This document shows, piece after piece, positions 2,487-56,732 of a DNA stretch of 64,000 nucleotides. The DNA is taken from positions 1 to 64,000 of the forward strand of contig CAMYKK010000002.1 in assembly GCA_947258975.1 (NCBI GenBank), given 5' to 3'. The position numbers and the translations under genes were made by a program. Below the pieces are notes generated by a model. The model was not told the DNA's origin, did no database searches, and was given only the letters and a program-made list of their open reading frames with translations. The stretch's first letter is position 1; each line of letters opens with the position of its first letter. The DNA is from an uncultured Gammaproteobacteria bacterium (GTDB lineage Bacteria; Pseudomonadota; Gammaproteobacteria; Arenicellales; JAANXG01).

Positions 2487-3626
2487 TTAGGTGGATTTCT
2501 GCGGCGACCGCAGCAGTTTGAAATCCGCCAGAGTCTGGCGCAGGGACGGCAGGAATCCTTCGTCGAGCATGTAGTACTGCATCTTCAAAGTGGTCGCAGA
2601 TCCCAGGACGATCGAGACCAGGGTGATCAATGAACCGAGCGCCAACGTAGACATGCCCGACACGCCCTGGCCGATGGTGCACCCGAGCGACAGCACCCCG
2701 CCGACGCCCATGAGTGCGCCCGCATACAGGTGGTTGATCATATCGCCCCTGGAGACAAAGGTCTCGATACGAAAGGTGCCGCTAGCGATGGCGTACACAA
2801 ACGAGCCGGCGATCATGCCCAGCACGACGGCGACGCCGAAGTTAATCACCGATCCGGTATAGGTCATGAGGTAGTTCAAGGTATTACCGGCAGGGGCGAT
2901 GAAACTCACGGCCTCCAGCGGCACCGGTTCGAATTCGTCATTGCCGATCACCCCGGTGACATACCAGGCGGCGGCGATCAACGTTCCGACCACGACGCCG
3001 ACCAGAACATTATCAAAGCTACGGCGAAAGGTTTTGTCTTTCAGGGCGTAGATAATGGCGCCCAAACCGAAAACCCCGGCTGTGACATATATCGCCCAGC
3101 GCGGAGACAGGCCGGTAAAGGCGGACAAGAACGTCGCGATGCTTTGGTCGACAAGACCGCGCTCACTGAGATCGATATTGCTGGCCTGAATCACCTCGAT
3201 GCGTAACACGGCAAACAAGCCGCGCAGCGTCATATAGGCGGTGAGCGCCAAGACGAGAAGCACGATCAAGGACTTCAGGTTGCCGCCCCCGACACGCACC
3301 AAGGTGCGTTGACCACATCCCGCACCCAGGGTCATACCGACCCCAAACATAAAACCACCGAGCAAGTAACCCAGCCAACCGAAATCGGTGCGCAGATAAA
3401 TCGACTGCCGCAGGTCGAACCAGCCCATGGCGCTCATGAGTTGAGTCCCCACAACGGCGATACCCAACGCCAGCATCCACGCGCGAAATCGTGTCTTGGA
3501 ACCCATATTGATCCAGTCGCTGATCGAGCCCATGATGCAAAAATGGGTCTTGCTGGCGATCGCGCCGAACACCATGGCGCCGAGAAATCCGAGCACCGCG
3601 ACGGTGTGAACGGTATCGAGTTCCAT
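2487..3626 (-). CDS. YeeE/YedE family sulfur transporter
   Basis: 379-residue polytopic inner-membrane protein of the YeeE/YedE family, which imports thiosulfate or other reduced sulfur species. The family's conserved Cys-containing repeats are visible: THFCIMG near residue 28, LGAGCGQRTLVR near 100 and LGCTIGQGVSG near 310. At least eight hydrophobic segments can be counted. The ATG at 3626 is the natural start. The downstream ABC-permease fusion begins within or just after the stop, so the two are probably co-transcribed; whether they work together is unknown. Confidence 0.85.
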   Translation of the reverse strand: MELDTVHTVAVLGFLGAMVFGAIASKTHFCIMGSISDWINMGSKTRFRAWMLALGIAVVGTQLMSAMGWFDLRQSIYLRTDFGWLGYLLGGFMFGVGMTLGAGCGQRTLVRVGGGNLKSLIVLLVLALTAYMTLRGLFAVLRIEVIQASNIDLSERGLVDQSIATFLSAFTGLSPRWAIYVTAGVFGLGAIIYALKDKTFRRSFDNVLVGVVVGTLIAAAWYVTGVIGNDEFEPVPLEAVSFIAPAGNTLNYLMTYTGSVINFGVAVVLGMIAGSFVYAIASGTFRIETFVSRGDMINHLYAGALMGVGGVLSLGCTIGQGVSGMSTLALGSLITLVSIVLGSATTLKMQYYMLDEGFLPSLRQTLADFKLLRSPQKST

Positions 3627-3777
3627 AGCTTAATTATTCAACATTCAAAATAGTTTCCAAACCCCGGCCCTAGCCGGGCGTAATAACCTCAGACAATGCA
3701 GGGGCGTTATGATAGTGAGTTCGGCCCGGTTTGTTGATTAAACCCTTGTATGGACGCATAGAAATTTACCGACCGGC

Positions 3778-4473
3778 TCACCCCGCGGCGTTGGTCACTA
3801 TCGGGTCGCGCAGACCTGCTTCCGCAAAGCCCTTGGCGCGCAGCCGGCAGGCGTCACACACGCCGCACGGCGCACCGTAGCTACCTGGTTGATAACAAGA
3901 CAGGGTCAACGCGTAATCCACGCCGAGCTGCATCCCACGCTGGATGATCTGTGCCTTGGTCATGCGAATGAGCGGCGCGTGAATGCGTATGCCGCCGTGC
4001 TCCACCCCGGCTCGCGTGGCCACATTGGCAAGCCTTTCAAAGGCCTCGATATATTCCGGGCGGCAGTCGGGATATCCGGAATAATCCACCGCATTGGCGC
4101 CGATAAATAGGTCCATAGCTCCCAGCACCTCGGCCCACGACAGCGCAATGGCAAGCAACACGGTGTTGCGCGCGGGCACATAGGTGGTGGGAATACCGTC
4201 GGTCGGCCGATCGGGCACCGGCAGCTGCGGGTCGGTCAACGCAGACCCGCCGAATTGACCAAGATCCAGGGTCACGGTGCGCTGGCCGGCTACGCCCACG
4301 GCAAGTGCGACCTGCTGCGCCGCCGCGAGCTCCAACCGGTGCCGCTGCCCATAGTCCACGGTCAAGGCGTAGCAGTCGAACCCCCGGTCGCGGGCCATAG
4401 TCAGCACCGTGGCCGAGTCCAGGCCGCCGGATACCAGCACCACCGCCGGCAAGCGATCAGCGGCCGCGCTCAT
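3778..4473 (-). CDS. queC: 7-cyano-7-deazaguanine synthase QueC
   Basis: Makes preQ0 from 7-carboxy-7-deazaguanine, ammonia and ATP for queuosine tRNA modification. The N-terminal PP-loop [13 protein letters not shown] (residues about 11-23) binds ATP, and the C-terminal cysteines in SCYQPG...CGVCDAC (about 191-207) form the zinc site. Length, 231 aa, is typical. The ATG lies inside the end of queE (17-base overlap), so the two are translationally linked in one operon. Confidence 0.96.
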
Positions 4474-6309: not shown

Positions 6310-6828
6310 TCAGTTTCCGTAAAGAATTTCAACCCGTCGATTCAATCGCCACGCGGACTCGTCGTGCTCAACCGACTCCGGGCGCTCTTCGCCATAGGAT
6401 ACGTTCTGGATCCGGTTGCCGGCAACACCCATCGCACCCATAAGATCCGCAACCGCTAGCGCACGCCGCTCTCCCAGCGCCAGGTTGTATTCCCGCGTAC
6501 CGCGCTCGTCTGCATGCCCTTCCAGCACCAGCGTGACGGTGGGATTGTTCACCAGATAGTTGGCGTGGGCCTCCACCAGCATCCGGGAATCATCATCCAA
6601 GGCCGAGCTGTCGAACTCAAAATATACCTTGCGACGGCCGAGCATGTCCCCGCTCTCACCCGCGCCTATCGGACGGCCATAGGCGTCGACGCCGGTACCG
6701 GTACCGGCGGCGCTGACTCCCCTGTCCTCGACCGAAGCACCCTCGTCTTTCACGCCTTTTTTGCCGCCGCACGCGGCAATAGTGACGCTCATTAATACTA
6801 CCAACACATACAGGTAGGGCTTACGCAT
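6310..6828 (-). CDS. pal: peptidoglycan-associated lipoprotein Pal
   Basis: Outer-membrane lipoprotein that binds peptidoglycan and TolB. It has a lipoprotein signal ending TIAACGGKKG (Cys20) and a C-terminal OmpA-like domain with VYFEFDSSAL and the peptidoglycan-binding stretch GHADERGTREYN...RRALAV. A clear ribosome site, GAGGAGA, lies 5 bases before the ATG. Length, 172 aa, is usual. It sits between tolB and cpoB in the standard order. Confidence 0.97.
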   Translation of the reverse strand: MRKPYLYVLVVLMSVTIAACGGKKGVKDEGASVEDRGVSAAGTGTGVDAYGRPIGAGESGDMLGRRKVYFEFDSSALDDDSRMLVEAHANYLVNNPTVTLVLEGHADERGTREYNLALGERRALAVADLMGAMGVAGNRIQNVSYGEERPESVEHDESAWRLNRRVEILYGN

Positions 6829-6841
6829 CTCAATCTCCTCA

Positions 6842-8146
6842 CTACAGTTTACGATTATAAGGTGACCAGGCAGGTTCGCGAACGTCCCCCTGCTGGAATT
6901 TCAAGGTTTGTTTGACACGGCCATCCGACGATACTGCGGCAAGCACGCCTTGCCCCCCCTGCCTTGTGGCATAGAGGATCATGCCTCCGTTAGGGGAGAA
7001 CGAAGGTGACTCGTCCAGCGTGCTATTGGTGAGCACCAACAATCCCTTGCTGTCCAACTCCAGAACGCCGATATGGTAGCCACTGTTATGGCGGGTCACC
7101 AAGGTCAGACGCTTTCCGTCACGTGAATACGAAGCACGTAAATTCTCTATGCCCTCAAAGGTCAAACGTTCCACGTTAGTGCCGTCCGCACGCATGCGAT
7201 AAATCTGCGCGCGGCCGCCGCGTGAGGACGTGAATACGATCTGCCTGCCGTCCGGCGACCATGCGGGCTCGGTGTCGATGGCGTGGTGGTTGGTCAATCG
7301 GCGCAGCTTTCGCGTTGCCAACGAAAAGGTATAGATTTCGGCGTTGCCGTCACGGCTCAACACCATCGCCAGCGTATTCCCGTTCGGCGACCACGCCGGG
7401 GCGCTGTTGGAACCGGGAAAGTTTGCAACCTTGTCGCGCGCCCCGTCGACCAGCCGTTGGACAAACACCATCGGGCGCCGATTTTCAAACGACACATAGG
7501 CGAGCTTGGCGCCATCCGGTGACCATGCCGGAGAGATGATCGGCTCCTTGGATTCTAGGATCGTCTTGGCTCCGTAGCCGTCGGAATCCGCAATGCGTAG
7601 CAAATAACGTGGCTGGCGGTTGGCGCCTTCTACCGTCACATAGGCAATGCGCGTATCGAAGGCGCCTTTTTCACCGGTGAGTTTGAAATAGATGATGTCA
7701 CTAATCTGATGCGCGAGCTTACGCAGCTGGCCGCCATTGACGACATAACTGAATCCGCTGAGTTGCTTGGCCTTGAACACATCGAATAAACGGAACTCGA
7801 CGCGGAACTGATTCGCCTTCAGCTCCTGCACTCGCCCGACCACCAGGGCTTCGGCCTTGATCAAGCGCCACTCCTTGAATTTGACCTCGGTATGGTCATG
7901 GGGCCGGCTCAAAAAATCCCGGCGTGGAATGGTGTCAAACCGCCCGCTGCGGTATAGATCCGCCTCGATGATGTCACTCATCGCCTGGGGCGGGGGCGTC
8001 GATCCCCGCCACGCAAAGGGGACGACGGCGATCGGCACGCCAGCCTCCACCCCCTGGGTGATCTCGATCTCTAATACCGCATGGGCGTCGACCGCCCAGG
8101 TCCAACCCACCAGCATGCACAAGCCAATACGCAGAATTTTACTCAT
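6842..8146 (-). CDS. tolB: Tol-Pal system beta-propeller protein TolB
   Basis: Periplasmic partner of Pal and TolA. An N-terminal signal (residues about 1-23) precedes the TolB N domain (IAVVPFAWRG...), followed by repeated propeller blades with the motif AWSPDG or SFSPNG (five or more copies between about 205 and 425), as in WD40-like PD40 repeats. 434 aa is normal. tolA ends just before its start. Confidence 0.97.
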   Translation of the reverse strand: MSKILRIGLCMLVGWTWAVDAHAVLEIEITQGVEAGVPIAVVPFAWRGSTPPPQAMSDIIEADLYRSGRFDTIPRRDFLSRPHDHTEVKFKEWRLIKAEALVVGRVQELKANQFRVEFRLFDVFKAKQLSGFSYVVNGGQLRKLAHQISDIIYFKLTGEKGAFDTRIAYVTVEGANRQPRYLLRIADSDGYGAKTILESKEPIISPAWSPDGAKLAYVSFENRRPMVFVQRLVDGARDKVANFPGSNSAPAWSPNGNTLAMVLSRDGNAEIYTFSLATRKLRRLTNHHAIDTEPAWSPDGRQIVFTSSRGGRAQIYRMRADGTNVERLTFEGIENLRASYSRDGKRLTLVTRHNSGYHIGVLELDSKGLLVLTNSTLDESPSFSPNGGMILYATRQGGQGVLAAVSSDGRVKQTLKFQQGDVREPAWSPYNRKL

Positions 8147-48874: not shown

Positions 48875-49678
48875 TCATGGAAGCTCAAACAGTTCCGCCA
48901 GCTTGGCGCCGGGCTCGGCAGCGCGCATAAACGCCTCACCGACCAGGAACCCGAACACGTCGTGCTCATACATGAGCCTAACGTCATCAGGCTTACGAAT
49001 TCCACTTTCGGTGATCACAATACGGTTATCGGGAATGTGCGCAAGCATATCGAGAGTGGTCGTGAGCCGGGTTTCGAAAGTTCTCAGGTCGCGGTTGTTG
49101 ATCCCAATCATCGGTAACTGCAGAACCAACGCCCGTTCCAGTTCGTGCTCATCATGCACTTCCACCAACACATCCATGCCCAACTCCAAAGCCAAGCTCG
49201 ATAACTCCATCAGTTGCGCGTCGCCGATCGCGGCAACGATCAATAATATGCAATCGGCGCCGATCACCCGCGCTTCCCAGACCTGATATGCGTCGATGGT
49301 GAAATCCTTGCGCAACACCGGCAGCGCGCAGGCTTGTTTGGCTTGATCAAGGTATTCGTCCGCGCCTTGAAAAAACATCTTGTCGGTCAATACGGACAGG
49401 CAGGCCGCGCCGGCCGCCGCGTAGCTCTCGGCAATCGCCACCGGGTCGAAATGTTGACGAATCACCCCCTTACTGGGGGAGGCCTTTTTGATCTCGGCGA
49501 TGATCGCGGCTTGTTTGACCGCAACGCGGGTCTCCACGGCTTCCAGAAAACCACGTGGGTGAGGCATGTCCTTCACTCTTGCGCGCAATTCCGGCAGCGG
49601 TTGGAGGCGCGTGCGTTGGGTGATTTCCTGCGCCTTATGGCGTACAATCTGACGGAGAATATCGAGCTGACCGGACAT
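48875..49678 (-). CDS. trpC: indole-3-glycerol phosphate synthase
   Basis: Tryptophan pathway, closes the indole ring. TIM barrel with IAEIKKASPSKGVIR (about 40-54), VLRKDFTIDAYQVWEARVIGADCILLI and IGINNRDLRTFE. 267 aa, monofunctional (no TrpF fusion). Ends the trp block, three bases after trpD. Confidence 0.97.
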   Translation of the reverse strand: MSGQLDILRQIVRHKAQEITQRTRLQPLPELRARVKDMPHPRGFLEAVETRVAVKQAAIIAEIKKASPSKGVIRQHFDPVAIAESYAAAGAACLSVLTDKMFFQGADEYLDQAKQACALPVLRKDFTIDAYQVWEARVIGADCILLIVAAIGDAQLMELSSLALELGMDVLVEVHDEHELERALVLQLPMIGINNRDLRTFETRLTTTLDMLAHIPDNRIVITESGIRKPDDVRLMYEHDVFGFLVGEAFMRAAEPGAKLAELFELP

Positions 49679-49681
49679 CCC

Positions 49682-50695
49682 TCAACGCCTGGTAAAGGCG
49701 ACGAATTGTTCGAATTTTTGCCGCGCTCCACCGTCCGCAATCACCGCCATTGCCTCGTTCACCCCTGACTGGAGACCATCAGCGACACCCGAAGCGTATA
49801 TCGCGGCTCCGGCATTCAGCGCCACGATGTCCCGTGCCGGTCCCGGATCATTGTCCAGCACCCCGCGTATCATCTGCAGGCTATCATTCGCGGTTGTCAC
49901 CGTTAGCCGGTCTATGCCGCCGGGCTCCAGACCGAAGTCTTGCGGACGAATCACATAGACGTCGACTGAACCATTTTTCAATTCCGCCACGTGCGTGGGA
50001 GCGCCGATGCTGATCTCATCCATGCCATCCTCCGCGTGCACGACCAACACGTGGCGGCTACCGAGTTGGCGTAGCACCTCCGCTATAGTTTCGAGCAAAG
50101 TCGCGTCAAACACCCCCAACACCTGATTCGGCGCTCCGGCAGGATTCGTCAGCGGACCGAGCACATTGAAAACCGTGCGTACGCCCATCTCGCGCCGCGG
50201 ACCGATGGCATGCTTCATCGCGCCGTGATGCAGCGGTGCAAACATGAACCCAATGCCGATTCGTTCTATGCACTGCGCCACCTGATCAGCATCAAGTTCC
50301 AAGTTGGCGCCGGCCGCCTCCAACAAATCCGCGCTGCCGGACTTGCTCGACACCGAACGGTTGCCGTGCTTGGCGACATGGGCGCCGGCGGCAGCGGCCA
50401 CGAACGCCGCAGCGGTGGAAATATTGAAGGTGTTGCGCGCATCACCGCCGGTCCCGCAGGTGTCCACGAGATGCGCTGCCGACACCGACACCTTGGACGC
50501 CAAGGACCGCATCACCTCGGCAGCCGCCGTTATCTCATCTATGGTCTCACCCTTCATGCGCAGTCCGATCAGGAACCCTCCGATCTGCGCAGGAGTCGTC
50601 TCACCGCTCATGACCGCTTGCATCACGGAGTGCATTTCCTCACGCGATAGATCGCGCCGTTCAATAACTGCGTTAATAGCTTGCTGGATATTCAT
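49682..50695 (-). CDS. trpD: anthranilate phosphoribosyltransferase
   Basis: Second tryptophan step. [17 protein letters not shown] (about 78-94) is the PRPP-binding signature, with [19 protein letters not shown] and [12 protein letters not shown]. 337 aa. A 130-base spacer separates it from trpG; nothing clear is seen in that spacer. Confidence 0.97.
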
Positions 50696-50825
50696 GTTCC
50701 GAATAACAATCTTGAAGTGAAAAAATTACCATAGAAAACGCAGCTCGCGGTATCACCGCTCACGCACCGCTGCGCCTTGCAAGTCATCAGTTGAATCACA
50801 GAATTCACGCCCATGGTCCGCGCCC

Positions 50826-51392
50826 TCAACTGTGCAGGAAATTGCGCAACAAATCGTGGCCATGTTGCGTCAGGATGGACTCCGGGTGGAACTGCACGCC
50901 TTCCACGTTCAGGGATTCGTGCCTGAGTCCCATGATCTCACCGTCTTCGGTCCACGCCGTGATCTCCAAACACTCCGGCAGGGTCTCGCGCTCCACTACC
51001 AATGAGTGATACCGCGTCGCCGGGAACGGGCTTTCGAGATCGCGAAACACGCCTTGGCCATGATGATGAATCAAGGAGGTCTTTCCATGCATGAGCTCCC
51101 TGGCATGCACGATTTGCCCGCCAAACGCCTGACCAATGCTTTGATGGCCGAGGCACACACCAAGGATTGGCAGCTTACCACTGAACTGGTGAATCACCTC
51201 CACCGATATGCCGGCTTCATTCGGGGTGCACGGCCCCGGGGATATGACGATGTATTCCGGTTGCATGCGCGCAATCTCCGCAACGGTGATTTGATCGTTG
51301 CGATACACCGCAACGTCTTCGCCGAGCTCACCCAGGTATTGAACCAGGTTATAGGTGAACGAATCATAGTTGTCTATCATCAGTAATGACAT
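50826..51392 (-). CDS. trpG: anthranilate synthase glutamine amidotransferase subunit
   Basis: Supplies ammonia to TrpE. Class I GATase with catalytic Cys in [15 protein letters not shown] (about 79) and catalytic His/Glu in FHPESILT near the end, plus [20 protein letters not shown] at the start. 188 aa. The channel gene ends three bases upstream. Could also serve folate synthesis, as PabA, which cannot be ruled out. Confidence 0.96.
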
Positions 51393-51395
51393 GAG

Positions 51396-52208
51396 TCACC
51401 CGCGCGAACCGTCTTCCTCGAGTCGCGTTTCCAATCTCGTCAGCGCCTCTCTGAGAGCTTGTATTTCCGACCCAACTGGGTCCGGGTCCGATGCCGCCGG
51501 CTTTATCTGCATGTTGCGCTCCTTCTTGGCGTCCTCGAGATTATTGATCACCACGGCGATGAAGAGATTGATAACGACAAACGTCGCCACAACTACGAAG
51601 CTAATGAAGAACACCCACATGTTTGGATTCATCTGCATCGCGATGTACATGATGTCCGTCCAATCTTCGAGAGTCAGAACCCGAAACAACGTCAACAGGG
51701 ATAGTCCCAAAGTGCGCCAGTGCGCTGGATCGTGCTCATGTAACAGGTAAAAACCGGCAATCGCATATATATAAAAAATAATAAACAGCAGCAACAACAC
51801 ATTGGCGAAGCCGGGAATAGACCTCACCAAGGTGGATACGATCAACCGCAGCTCGGGCAGCGTCGACATCAAGCGCATCACTCGCAGCAGGCGTGCGAGT
51901 CGTGCGACCATGGCATACTGACCCGTCATCGGGATCAGCGATAACACGACAACGGAAAAGTCAAAAACATTCCAACCATCTCCAAAATATCTTCCGACAC
52001 GGGGCGCCACAACCGTGATCTTCATGGCGGCCTCGAGCACGAATACGACGAGCACAATGTGGTTGACCCACAACATCACCCCGCCGAAACGCGACTCCAG
52101 AGATGGGTACGTCTCCATGCCGAGCACGATCGCATTGACGATGATCAGCAGCACGATAGTCCGCTCGAACCGTGGATCGCTGACGATCTTGTTGAGCACC
52201 GCCTGCAT
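51396..52208 (-). CDS. bacterial voltage-gated cation channel (NaChBac/NavAb type)
   Basis: 270-aa single-domain six-helix channel, the length of NavAb-type channels. S1 to S3 at about 15-100. S4 carries four Arg at every third position (VARLARLLRVMRL, about 105-118). S5 follows, then the pore loop with filter TLEDWTD (about 180) and S6 (FVVVATFVVINLFIAVVINNL). The C terminus is a short heptad-rich helix ending LTRLETRLEED, as in NaChBac tetramers. The filter lies between NavAb TLESWSM and the engineered calcium-selective TLDDWSD. The gene sits three bases from trpG and from trpE. Confidence 0.92.
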   Translation of the reverse strand: MQAVLNKIVSDPRFERTIVLLIIVNAIVLGMETYPSLESRFGGVMLWVNHIVLVVFVLEAAMKITVVAPRVGRYFGDGWNVFDFSVVVLSLIPMTGQYAMVARLARLLRVMRLMSTLPELRLIVSTLVRSIPGFANVLLLLFIIFYIYAIAGFYLLHEHDPAHWRTLGLSLLTLFRVLTLEDWTDIMYIAMQMNPNMWVFFISFVVVATFVVINLFIAVVINNLEDAKKERNMQIKPAASDPDPVGSEIQALREALTRLETRLEEDGSRG

Positions 52209-52211
52209 AGC

Positions 52212-53711
52212 TCAATTCAGACTCGAGTCACGATCGAGGCCGGCGCTGGCCATCGTCACGGCCTGAAAGATGGCGCGTCCCTTGTTCATGGTTTCCATCC
52301 ACTCGCGGCTCGGTATCGAATCGGCAACGATACCGGCACCGGCTTGGATATATAAAACATTGTCTCGAATGACTGCTGTTCGTATTGCGATGGCGGTGTC
52401 CATGTTTCCGTTCCAGCCGATATATCCCACGGCTCCGGAATAGACTCCACGTTTATCGGGCTCCATTTCATCGATGATCTCCATCGCCCTGACCTTGGGT
52501 GCGCCGGTCACCGTGCCCGCGGGAAACGTGGCGCGCAGCACATCGATCGCGTCAAGCCCGTGGGCCAATTCGCCTTGCACATTGGAAACGATGTGCATGA
52601 CGTGAGAGTAACGCTCCACCATCATTTTTTCTGTGAGGCAAACAGAGCCTATCGTTGCCACCCTGCCAACATCATTACGGCCCAGGTCAACCAGCATCAA
52701 GTGCTCAGCCAGTTCTTTGGGATCCGCCATTAACTCGCGCTCGAGGCGAATGTCGTCATCCATATCCTTCCCGCGTCGACGGGTACCGGCGATCGGACGC
52801 ACGGTCACCACACCCTCCTCTAAACGCACCAGGATCTCCGGCGAGGAACCCACGATCTGGAAATCGTCCATATCCAGGAAATACATGTACGGCGATGGAT
52901 TGACGGTACGCAGTGCCCGGTACATATTGATGGGCTCGGCATGGAAGGGAATCGACAAGCGCTGCGACAATACGACTTGCATGATATCCCCGTTGCGGAT
53001 GTATTCGCGGGACCGCTCTACCGCGTCCTCGAAATCCGCCTGTGTAAATTCAGATGTGAAATCCGCTTCGGCGACGTCTGTTGGATCGTAATCCCGAGAT
53101 ACCAATGGCGGAATTTCGCGAAGATCCACTATCAGTTCGTCCAGGCGTTGATGCCCCTTTTTCCAGCTCCTGGAATCCGCCGGATCGACATGGGTTATCA
53201 CGTGCAGTCTTCCGGTCAGATTGTCGAACACCAGGACATCTTCCGAGACCATGAGCATGATATCGGGAGCTTGAACGGGGTCCGGCTTGTGCGAGAGACC
53301 GAGATGGGTTTCGATATAACGAACGGTATCATAGCCGAAATAACCGACCACACCTCCGGTAAACCGCGGTAATCCATCGATCTCCGGCACCTGGTAACGC
53401 CGCTGAAAATCACCGACTGCGGCCAATGGATCGTCGACCGTTTCCTGCTCGATGACCTCATTTTCGTGCATCACCTGTAACTCGTTGCCCCACACCCGCA
53501 ATACCGTACGGCACGGCAAACCAATTATGGAGTAGCGGCCCCATTTCTCGCCGCCATGAACCGATTCGAGCAGGTAGGAGTAGGGACCGTTTGCCAGCTT
53601 GAGGTAGGTGCTGACCGGCGTATCGAGGTCAGCCAACACCTCGCGCATCAGCGGAACGCGGTTGAAGCCTTGCGACGCGAGATTAGAGAGATCGGACTTT
53701 TGAACGGGCAT
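52212..53711 (-). CDS. trpE: anthranilate synthase component I
   Basis: Chorismate to anthranilate with TrpG. Feedback-site region near [15 protein letters not shown] (about 45-60), chorismate-binding core with [26 protein letters not shown] and [19 protein letters not shown]. 499 aa. A GGTGAT box lies 6 bases before the ATG. A Trp-rich frame is in the leader (53764-53829). Confidence 0.97.
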
Positions 53712-53763
53712 GTATCATCACCGGGTATGGCGTGTTTTTAGCGATTTAGAAACAAGGATAAGC

Positions 53764-53829
53764 TCAGCGTCGCCAGCGGCGCGCTGTACCGTTCCATGTC
53801 CAATCCTGCCCAATGATGAAAATGTTCAC
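53764..53829 (-). promoter_or_regulatory. candidate Trp-rich leader frame upstream of trpE
   Basis: A 22-codon frame from GTG 53829 to TGA 53764 codes 21 residues with three Trp (DWTW and RRWRR). It ends inside a hairpin (53766-53785, 8-bp stem with one mismatch). This resembles the leader peptides of attenuated trp operons, and trpE attenuation is known in Pseudomonas putida. Against it: no ribosome site at the GTG, the frame stays open upstream, and no T-run terminator is seen before trpE. Confidence 0.35.
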
Positions 53830-53842
53830 GTTCTGAATCGTG

Positions 53843-54556
53843 TCAATTGAACTTCTGGAGAATGCCGGCAAGCTCTTTAAACGACGTTATGATTGCGTCC
53901 GGATCGTATTTCGTCAAGTCCACACCCTGATTGTAACCGTAGCTGACGCAAATCACCGGCATACCCGCCGCCTTGGCGGCCTTGACATCGTTGACCGAAT
54001 CACCGACCAGGATAGCATCCCGTGGGGCGATGCCGAAAAGGTCACAAATATGCCGTAACGGCAGCGGGTCCGGTTTTTTCTTGGCCAGGCTGTCGCCGGA
54101 AATAACCGCCTCGAAAAATCCGTCCAGTTCCAGCTCTTCCAACAGCGGATCGGTAAAGGCCTGCGGTTTATTTGTCACACAGGCCAACCTGAATTCCCGG
54201 GCTTTGAGTTTAATGAGTGCCTCGCGAACATCGGGGTATGGTTCGCTGTGATCACAAACGCCCTCCAAATAGTGCCGGTGAAACAGCGCATGACCATGCG
54301 CGAATAGTTCGGCGTCCGGTTCTCCATCCCAGGTTTCGGTCAACGCCCGCTTGACCAGACGCGTCACCCCGTTACCGATCCAATTCATCACGTCGCTCTC
54401 CGGCAGGCTGGACATTCCCAAATCTTCGCGCATGCGGTTTACCGCATGGGCAAGATCGGGGGCGGTATGGATCAAGGTGCCGTCGAGATCGAACACCACG
54501 GCACCGACCTCGAACTCGGATCCAGCGCCACCGGTTTCCGGCGTAATAGCCGTCAT
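53843..54556 (-). CDS. gph: phosphoglycolate phosphatase (Gph)
   Basis: HAD-superfamily phosphatase. Motif [17 protein letters not shown] (about 20-35), a cap domain, VTNKPQAF for motif II, and [20 protein letters not shown] for motif IV. 237 aa. Overlaps the rpe end by 4 bases; rpe-gph-trpE is the pseudomonad-like order. Its stop codon overlaps a TTGACA box (53841-53846) of uncertain meaning. Confidence 0.94.
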
Positions 54557-55227
54557 CGCACGGCCTTCGCGATCTCCGCGCGCATCGCCTCGATGGTGGC
54601 TTGGTAATCCTCGGTACCAAAGATCGCCGACCCGGCAACAAAGGTGTCGGCGCCGGCGGCGGCGATTTGCCCAATATTGTCGATCTTTACGCCACCGTCG
54701 ACCTCCAGCCTGATATCCCTGCCGCTGCGATCGATGATATCTCTCACTTCTTTCAGCTTGTCCAAGACGTAAGGAATGAATTTTTGCCCGCCGAAGCCGG
54801 GATTGACCGACATCAGCAGCACCATATCGATCTGCTCAACCACATGGCGAAGGTAGTCGACGGGGGTCGCCGGATTGAATACCAAGCCACATTTACATCC
54901 CGATTCCTTGACGAGCTGCAGTGAACGGTCGACGTGCTCGCTGGCCTCTGGATGAAACGTAATATAGGTGGCTCCGGCATTGGCAAAGTCCGGAATGATG
55001 CGATCTACCGGCTTCACCATCAGATGCACATCGATAGGCGCACTGATTCCGAAATTTCGCAACGCCTCGCAAACCAGAGGCCCGATAGTAAGATTTGGAA
55101 CATAATGGTTGTCCATAACGTCGAAATGAACGATATCGGCTCCCGCGGCCAATACGTTGTCAACTTCCTCGCCCAAGCGGGCGAAATCCGCGGAGAGAAT
55201 TGATGGAGCAATTGCGTAATCTGCCAT
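54553..55227 (-). CDS. rpe: ribulose-phosphate 3-epimerase
   Basis: Interconverts ribulose 5-phosphate and xylulose 5-phosphate. TIM barrel with [16 protein letters not shown] (about 5-20), [31 protein letters not shown] and [14 protein letters not shown] 55227 (MADYAIAPS) fits the family; the frame to 55272 is probably not used. 224 aa. Confidence 0.97.
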
Positions 55228-55296
55228 AGGGTTTCCTTGACTAATTTTCAGGTTTGGATAGACGTCATCCAAAGGTTAACGAAATTTGCCGGTAAG

Positions 55297-55335
55297 GGAA
55301 AATAAAACACTGCCGATCGATCCGTAGCCGTCGGC
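55297..55335 (-). terminator. weak terminator-like hairpin downstream of the Do-family protease
   Basis: On the minus strand after the protease stop, GCCGA pairs with TCGGC over a 14-base loop, and AGTG then TTTTATTTT follows. The stem is short and separated from the U-rich tract, so this is only suggestive. Confidence 0.3.
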
Positions 55336-55352
55336 CTCTATTCTTTGCATTC

Positions 55353-56732
55353 TCAACGAATAGCCAGAAACAAAGCGCCGTTACCGCGGCGGATGTTCAT
55401 TAAAATCCCGTTTCGTGATGCTCCCAGAGCCGCTCGCATCGCGTCGACATCTCGCACCGTAATCCGGTTGACCGACACGATCACATCGTCCTTTCTGAGA
55501 CCGGCGCTCCACGCTTGACTGCCCGGCTCTATGTCGGCAACCAACACGCCCGGTTGCTCTCCGATTCCCGAATCATCGGGCTTGTTGGTAAACTGCGCCC
55601 CGGCGAGACGGCGGCTGAGCGTCTTGCCGTCGATAGCCGCCAGTTTCGGTTGTTCGATTTTAGCCGTAACCTTACGCTCCTGGCCGCGTCGTAATACAGT
55701 CAGTTCAACAACCTGACCGACGCGCAGCAACCCCACCGCATTGCGCAAGTCGGCGGCATCTTCAACCACTTTACTGTTGACACGCACCACTACATCACCT
55801 TCGCGCAGGCCCGCTTTATCGGCAGGAGAATCCGGAACAATCTGTGCAACGACCGCGCCGCTCGTTTCCGGGATCCCAAATGCACCGGCCAATTCCGGCG
55901 TGAGATCTTGGATGTGCACACCCAATCGGCCACGGCGAACTTCGCCATACTCCACCAGTTGATCTTTGAGCTGTTTTGCCATATTGATGGGGATCGCAAA
56001 ACCAATACCGACATTGCCGCCGGAGGGCGCCAAGATCGCGGTATTGATGCCTACTAATTCACCGCGGAGATTAACCAATGCGCCGCCCGAGTTCCCGGGA
56101 TTAATCGACGCATCTGTTTGAATAAAATCCTCATATCCTTCAATACCGAGGCCACTGCGCCCCAATGCGCTGATGATCCCTGAGGTAACGGTCTGATTGA
56201 GCCCGAACGGATTGCCGATGGCGACCACAAAATCTCCCACCCGCAGCGAATCCGAGTCTCCCAGCCGGAGCGCCGTGAGGTCCGTCGCCGCGATGCGAAT
56301 CACCGCAACATCGGAATCGGGATCGGCGCCAATGAGTTCGGCGGTGAAGTTGCGGCCGTCCTGCAAGGTGACGGTAATTTCATCGGCCTTATCGATCACG
56401 TGGGCATTGGTCATCACGTAACCTTTTCCGGCATCGACGATGACACCGGAGCCGAGGCTTTGCGTACGCCGCCGCCGCGGCCGTGGCTCCGGCAGATCGA
56501 AGAAGCGCCGGAAGAAAGGGTCCTGCAGCAGTGGGTTTTCGCGAATGCGAATATTGCTGCGTGTGGCGATATTGACCACCCCCGGCGTTATTCGCTCCAG
56601 CATGGGGGCCAATGTTGGCAACGGTGCGCCTTCAACCATGGCCGGCAACGCAGCATTGACAATGGACCACGGGAACCAGACCAAGATCAAAACGATGGAT
56701 AGCCGCCCGTTACGAAATCGCCGTTTACGCAT
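55353..56732 (-). CDS. Do family serine protease (DegP/DegQ/MucD type)
   Basis: Periplasmic quality-control protease. Signal peptide of about 27 residues (ends VNAALPA). Catalytic triad: His in [10 protein letters not shown], Asp in DSDVAVIRI, Ser in [12 protein letters not shown]. Two PDZ domains follow (about 270-355 and 375-455). ATG 56732 was chosen over GTG 56738. 459 aa. The gene stands alone, and I cannot tell whether it is DegP-, DegQ- or MucD-like. Confidence 0.95.

Follow-up and report, generated by a model that had tools for sequence, protein, structure and literature searches.

Within the window, the whole stretch of 64,000 nucleotides that was analysed, a gene for a voltage-gated cation channel lies inside the trp operon; the genes on the minus strand run in the order rpe, gph, a 131-bp gap, trpE, 3 bp, the channel gene, 3 bp, trpG, trpD and trpC. 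The product of trpE (52212–53711), anthranilate synthase component I, was identified with TIGR00564 (579.2 bits against a cut-off of 517.7), that of trpG (50826–51392), the anthranilate synthase glutamine amidotransferase, with PF00117 and TIGR00566, that of trpD (49682–50695) with PF00591 and PF02885, and that of trpC (48875–49678) with PF00218, all on the minus strand. The two genes upstream of trpE, at 53843–54556 (minus strand) and 54553–55272, were recognized by position and translation and are taken to be gph-like and rpe-like, respectively; their homologues keep this order before trpE in many relatives.

The channel gene itself (51396–52208, minus strand) starts with ATG, is intact and encodes a single-domain protein of 270 residues of the ancestor-like BacNav (AnclNav) type. 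The first-pass annotation had placed it three bases from both trpE and trpG on the same strand, and the coordinates bear this out, the trpE end being at 52212 and the trpG start at 51392. In its strand, its coupled spacing and a position that recurs in other genomes, the channel gene behaves as a gene of the trp operon, and the spacing fits both co-transcription and coupled translation with trpE. A consensus promoter scan returned four sites against 5.1 expected by chance, which is no excess and says little, and none of the four lay between trpE and the channel gene. The corresponding terminator scan (11 sites against 7.0 expected) picked out a terminator-like hairpin of 11 pairs inside the channel coding sequence, at 51802–51830 on the minus strand. 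A recent import of the channel gene was rejected on its base composition, which is similar to that of its neighbours (GC 0.533, compared with 0.557 for trpE and 0.550 for trpG). We did not find the trpE–channel arrangement described in the literature searched.

That this is a genuine voltage-gated channel gene, as first annotated, was confirmed by the match of its product to the Ion_trans family in Pfam (PF00520, 2e-48), by the S4 arginines and by the predicted fold. The AlphaFold2 model, for which a 46-sequence alignment was the input, has a mean pLDDT of 88.1 and a pTM of 0.68, and the best solved structures matched by Foldseek were CavAb (5klb, E 2.1e-13), NavAb, NavMs and NaChBac, with the channel 36–40% identical to the NavAb, CavAb and NaChBac chains. 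It resembles these three proteins in fold, in its S4 arginines and in its C-terminal helix, and thus has the single-domain, six-helix, voltage-gated architecture of AnclNavs. The S4 voltage-sensor stretch (51873–51902, minus strand) carries Arg103, Arg106, Arg109 and Arg112, the last three of which are invariant and the first at least 90% conserved in the 46-sequence alignment A1. The channel also carries Glu59, Asn80 and Asp83, which in this channel family lie in S2 and S3, and the model predicts a C-terminal helix at residues 244–269 (51402–51479, minus strand), presumably a coiled coil as in BacNavs.

The selectivity filter and the permeant ion

The selectivity filter, residues 179–185 (51654–51674, minus strand), reads TLEDWTD, in contrast to the TLESW motif of the canonical BacNavs NavAb and NaChBac; it has the form expected of an AnclNav filter, TLESW-like with more acidic residues. 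CavAb, the engineered Ca2+ form of NavAb, carries TLDDWSD. TLEDWTD is the commonest filter of the channel family, being present in all 23 of the intact copies linked to trpE that are described below and in most of the unlinked ones. In a quick tree, built without the NavPp and CavMr sequences and subject to a long-branch warning, nine rows with the filter TLESWSM stood apart with a support of 100; L168 (TFEDWTD, with a very long branch), the tenth row carrying the canonical label, did not group with them.

The first-pass annotation described the filter as mixed between sodium and calcium types and suggested possible calcium permeability. It is not an unstudied intermediate, because the identical filter of NavPp from Plesiocystis pacifica has already been recorded; that channel is Na+-selective, with low-affinity block by Ca2+ and a PCa/PNa of 0.308 (PMC7041947). 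NavPp shares with the channel not only all seven filter residues but also the single-domain voltage-gated build and perhaps a place apart from the canonical TLESW group; it differs in that the channel of the window lies in a gammaproteobacterial trp operon. The protein would form a homotetramer that is most likely Na+-conducting, with a NavPp-like block by external Ca2+.

An alternative is that the three acidic residues of the filter give a Ca2+ permeability sufficient for Ca2+ signalling. The artificial NavAb mutant TLEDWSD is Ca2+-selective, and NavPp has been suggested to pass a larger fraction of Ca2+ than canonical BacNavs (both PMC7041947); a review likewise counts one-domain channels with an Asp after the filter glutamate as Ca2+-selective, contrary to the NavPp recordings (PMC10120453). 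We gave those recordings more weight than the review because they were made on the identical native filter, and the T6S mutant of NavPp (TLEDWSD) remains blocked by Ca2+ (PMC7041947). That study gives, for the native bacterial Ca2+ channel CavMr from Meiothermus ruber, the glycine at position 4 of TLEGWVD as the key determinant of Ca2+ selectivity (PMC7041947). The channel of the window shares with CavMr a filter of the AnclNav kind, including Glu3 and Asp7, but its position 4 is Asp182 rather than glycine. A dedicated Ca2+ channel is therefore weakened as a reading by the recordings on the identical filter, the suggested calcium permeability is not supported, even though some Ca2+ may permeate, and we consider a role in Ca2+ signalling quite improbable.

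Relatives that do have glycine at this position (TLEGWTE/D/V/N/I) arise inside the TLEDWTD tree, in Chloroflexota records, and are candidate natural Ca2+ channels; examples are L049, L056, L058, L064, L071, L073, L078, L081, L085, L089, L093, L094, L095, L099 and L101, of which L078 has the exact CavMr filter, TLEGWVD.

Recurrence and decay of the trpE–channel junction

The insertion is conserved in related genomes rather than unique to one strain, a question that the first-pass annotation had raised. The trpE–channel junction was found in 25 genomes, spread over six family codes and eight named MAG records, with 23 copies intact, one frameshifted (G004) and one cut by a contig end (G008), and this conservation rules out a strain-specific accident. 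In the order (109 genomes), 21 genomes match the channel at E 1e-60 or better and 12 of these are linked to trpE, 11 with intact copies together with the frameshifted G004; the other nine, all of family f10, have trpE on another contig or not beside the gene in the stretch covered. Besides that of the window, 14 of the 369 genomes sampled from the class have a copy at E 1e-90 or better, four of them linked (G204, G215, G272 and G325) and ten without trpE in the stretch covered. Among the best 80 of 395 loci, nine are linked (L072, L074, L075, L079, L083, L086, L092, L107 and L077, the last being that of G004), a number that may miss some cases since several of the 80 loci have little upstream sequence. 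L074/L075, L009/L010 and L148/L153 are pairs of near-identical loci.

The geometry of the junction is tight on the trpE side. With start codons picked automatically, so that single distances may shift, the distance from the trpE stop to the channel start was −8 to +33 nt in 22 of 24 loci, and 54 and 129 nt in the other two; the genes overlap in six of the 24, in four cases by 4 nt (ATGA three times and GTGA once). By contrast, the distance to trpG varies: of the 23 loci with an intact channel, eight have trpG no more than 100 bp away, six have it at 0.5–6 kb, and in nine it is outside the stretch covered. In G017, G215, G325 and G204 the stop of the channel gene reaches into the start of trpG as aligned. 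Because the trpG side is looser, the unit is trpE–channel, with trpE rather than trpG as the constant partner. The intact linked copies all keep Glu59, Asn80, Asp83, Asn214 and the seven filter residues (23/23), and 22 of the 23 keep Arg103, the alignment having a gap there in the other copy.

In quick trees of the channel, which carried long-branch warnings, the linked rows form two separated groups with unlinked rows among them, and linked channels as one clade were rejected by the AU test (p 1.1e-6; 78 rows, with L057, L110 and the canonical rows left out). The linkage thus has either several origins or a long history of frequent breakage, two gains and one old gain with losses or transfers being alike to the AU test. 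The TrpE tree largely tracks the family codes. A second kind of trp neighbourhood was seen in family f64, at L156/L196 (G353), where trpG-trpD-trpC has as its divergent neighbour a channel gene of 45% identity.

Within the window's own genus, the picture is one of decay. Of its six genomes, only that of the window has an intact channel; the other five comprise one frameshifted copy, two remnants with internal deletions and two without a copy. The copy in G004, a metagenome assembly in which the frameshift could be an assembly error, has a 49-bp deletion that shifts the frame and is 90% identical to the channel over its first 149 residues. Compared with the window's gene, omega is 0.11 and 0.15 in the two parts of this copy, against 0.067 for trpE and 0.058 for trpG, values that point to purifying selection on the channel. 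In G002 (L113) and G005 (L114), an internal deletion joins the first ~20 residues to residues ~213–270 in an open frame of ~75 codons; these remnants sit between trpE and trpG, the end with the C-terminal helix survives, and the frames perhaps stay open since translation into trpG needs an open reading frame there. G001 retains only a short stretch resembling the 3′ end of the channel gene, and G003 shows no clear trace. The concern that relatives might lack a working S4 or filter is thus justified for all five other genomes of the genus, which have no working copy, but the arrangement extends beyond one strain. The loss or damage in all five argues against an essential role in tryptophan metabolism. 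Elsewhere in G002, G003 and G005 there is a channel with the filter TLESWSM (36–37% identity). No such channel was found at E 1e-5 in G000 (the window's genome) or G004, G000 having one 29% match at E 1.1e-5 on C8, and G001 has neither an intact trp-linked channel nor a TLESWSM channel.

A candidate Trp-codon leader before trpE

Upstream of trpE lies a candidate leader open reading frame (53764–53829, minus strand) of 21 codons, VNIFIIGQDWTWNGTARRWRR, which begins with GTG 118 nt before trpE and contains three Trp codons. A peptide with such clustered Trp codons occurs in ~1% of 200 base shuffles of the region, and related Trp-containing peptides begin ~100–130 nt before trpE in 12 further genomes. 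Inside the reading frame, a 5′ arm, TCATCATTGGG (53809–53819, minus strand), is complementary to a 3′ arm, CCCGGTGATGA (53715–53725, minus strand), that covers the trpE ribosome-binding region (p ~0.02, 100 shuffles). In a strict test, two Trp codons within five were found at 10 of 39 loci (G000, G001, G004, G008, G012, L127, L131, L140 of G053, L141 of G046 and L187, the last five being of other families), and reading by eye adds G003, G005, G006, G010, G011 and G017, whose peptides contain between one and three Trp codons. The region is covered in 12 genomes of family f1, and all but G007 and G009 have both the peptide and the arm.

Complementarity of the arms gave p ≤0.07 in G000, G001, G003, G004, G006, G008, G010, G011, G012 and G017 (100 shuffles each), and 0.04 and 0.24 in G046 and G053; single shuffle values are weak, as L129, L079 and L083 also gave p ≤0.04 with unlike helices (39 loci of sufficient length, G005 not among them). 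The hand-listed arms of 11 genomes, which were put in register manually, pair in 118 of their 121 cells, and whole arms re-dealt among the eight distinct pairs matched this in 55 of 2000 trials. An earlier leader alignment, A2, in which a repeated TCATCA motif was out of register in several rows, paired in 81.8% of cells; in alignment A3, which like the hand-listed arms leaves out two f8 genomes, 97.0% of cells pair, compared with at most 67.8% after shifts of as many as three columns. Nine of 500 shuffles reached the covariation score of A3, but 77 reached its number of pairs changed on both sides and 134 its number of further pair types, so that covariation between the arms is modest. When the leaders are folded by themselves, the minimum-energy structure contains the arm helix in G001, G004, G008 and G012, but not in the window.

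Beyond the 11 genomes, the element occurs in variant form in two more, and one f168 genome has a peptide with two close Trp codons; the strict test detected no clustered-Trp leader at the linked loci of f11 (of the same order), f105 and f157 or at seven named MAG loci. No Rfam match was found up to E 1 in 50600–56000, and the consensus scan gave no minus-strand terminator-like site, such as an E. coli-type attenuator has, in 53712–53842. The leader looks like translational attenuation of a kind without an Rfam model, in which stalling at the Trp codons would free the trpE start. Because the element occurs both with and without the channel, it is best seen as trpE's own control, by way of which channel expression may follow tryptophan supply.

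Hosts of the channel family and the meaning of the linkage

In order to see which genes the channel family adjoins elsewhere, we collected 116 AnclNav rows by filter pattern, dropping duplicate loci, remnants, the frameshifted copy, rows below 120 bits and other filters; genes were called automatically, and near-identical species remain, so that the rows are redundant. Of the 112 rows away from an edge, 61 have as their nearest upstream neighbour a same-strand gene at a distance of at most 150 bp, 17 have a same-strand gene farther off, and in 34 the neighbour is divergent; the close same-strand class makes up three of 13 TLESWSM rows. Sampling concentrated on relatives of the window, and the host counts are therefore not natural frequencies. 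The partners in the 61 close rows are diverse: trpE in 23, ppc in eight, FTCD in eight, an FTCD-neighbouring CBS gene in seven, an M23 peptidase in two, a gene in two Acidobacteria records in two, a gene that we take from its motif to be UvrD-like in two, and singles, two of which are purL (0 bp) and a DsbA-like gene (9 bp). Partner clusters were searched against Pfam with one member each; the FTCD identity comes from L032, tied to the others by clustering with crude gene calling (the channel reading frame was recovered at 61 of 80 loci), and one or both of the singles L053 and L100 probably stem from faulty gene calling. All partners that emerged from clustering the neighbours were specific to a lineage, with no functional partner conserved across all phyla. 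The trp operon is therefore one host among several, since relatives also immediately follow ppc, purL, FTCD and other genes.

Little is settled about what voltage-gated channels do for bacteria in nature. For NavBP of Bacillus, a role through flagellar motility has reportedly been proposed; as a general role it was rejected here, since flagellin was found in only one (G000) of 13 linked-gene genomes, among the window's own and 60 relatives and with G004 and G008 counted.

We consider it probable that the locus holds an ancestor-like BacNav Na+ channel carried as a translationally coupled passenger of trpE. Transcription would come from the trpE promoter, and ribosomes finishing trpE would start on the channel and, in some genomes, continue into trpG; the 3′ junction of trpE would be one of several housekeeping 3′ ends used by the family, and the linkage would mainly supply the channel with steady, growth-coupled expression. 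In the window's lineage, the channel would also come under the control of the probable leader with Trp codons, through its action on the ribosome-binding site of trpE. Its physiological role may be Na+ re-entry for membrane-potential or pH homeostasis, and the RNF/NQR-type subunit in the window's own genome is compatible with a Na+ economy. What can be read in the DNA itself is the intact channel, its filter, the coupling geometry, the conservation, the alternative hosts and the complementarity of leader and ribosome-binding site. The channel belongs to a known kind; its place in the operon is unexpected, recurs in other genomes and is tightly coupled. With its relatives behind other metabolic genes, it has more the look of a passenger that is co-expressed than of a device dedicated to tryptophan. 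Against this reading, trpE is the commonest host (23 of 61 close rows, in a biased sample), few other junctions are as tight as that with trpE, a closeness for which a neutral passenger would have no need, and the repeated association with one gene could mean function.

Such a function might be a coupling in which low levels of charged tRNA-Trp cause leader stalling, which opens translation of trpE and the channel, so that Na+ entry and a change in membrane potential follow as a response to tryptophan shortage or to anthranilate or indole chemistry. Three points speak for this: in 11 genomes of the order, the Trp-codon leader, which stands before trpE with and without the channel, can base-pair with the ribosome-binding site of trpE; trpE ranks as the most frequent and tightest host in the sample; and the association is scattered over distant parts of the channel tree. 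However, none of the five other genomes of the genus has an unbroken channel gene, although all five keep trpE, and the leader persists in the four of these with the upstream region covered (G001, G003, G004 and G005; G002 is cut at 57 nt); relatives use unrelated hosts, and the linked loci tested outside f1 and f6 showed no clustered-Trp leader, bar the one f168 genome. We regard functional coupling as unlikely, and its specific form as a tryptophan-gated excitability switch, in which a shortage of charged tRNA-Trp would stall ribosomes on the leader and expose the ribosome-binding site of trpE, so that coupled translation yields more voltage-gated Na+ channels, as rather unlikely. The link between tryptophan supply and membrane excitability that the first-pass annotation left unexplained is possible at the level of expression, but it is unproven, and the same family lies elsewhere behind ppc, purL, FTCD and other genes. 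At the other extreme, the channel might be an accidental, decaying insertion at a tolerant trpE–trpG junction with no selected expression link, as the remnants and the frameshift in the genus could suggest. Breaks between trpE and trpG are frequent in any case: eight of 20 channel-less trpE loci have no trpG in at least ~1.3 kb downstream (a ninth, L133, has ~140 bp covered), and in Pseudomonas aeruginosa PAO1 and PA14 the R/F pyocin genes are likewise foreign genes between trpE and trpG, albeit as a large phage-tail cluster rather than a coupled single channel gene (PMC8609362). The 23 intact copies with their motif residues, the omega of 0.11–0.15 and the exact 4-nt overlaps in separate loci make mere accident very improbable.

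A channel welded repeatedly to the 3′ end of trpE, and in other groups to those of ppc, purL or FTCD, should have an expression that tracks a known metabolic operon, and the intact, truncated and missing copies at one junction offer a natural comparison. If the leader does regulate the channel, membrane excitability would be tied to amino-acid supply, and, if the switch were true, a signal of that supply would directly set the electrical excitability of the cell. One locus of the family, L190 (G130), carries both a canonical-type channel gene (35% identical; 3400–4251) and an AnclNav gene (6679–7500), on the same strand and with starts ~3.3 kb apart.
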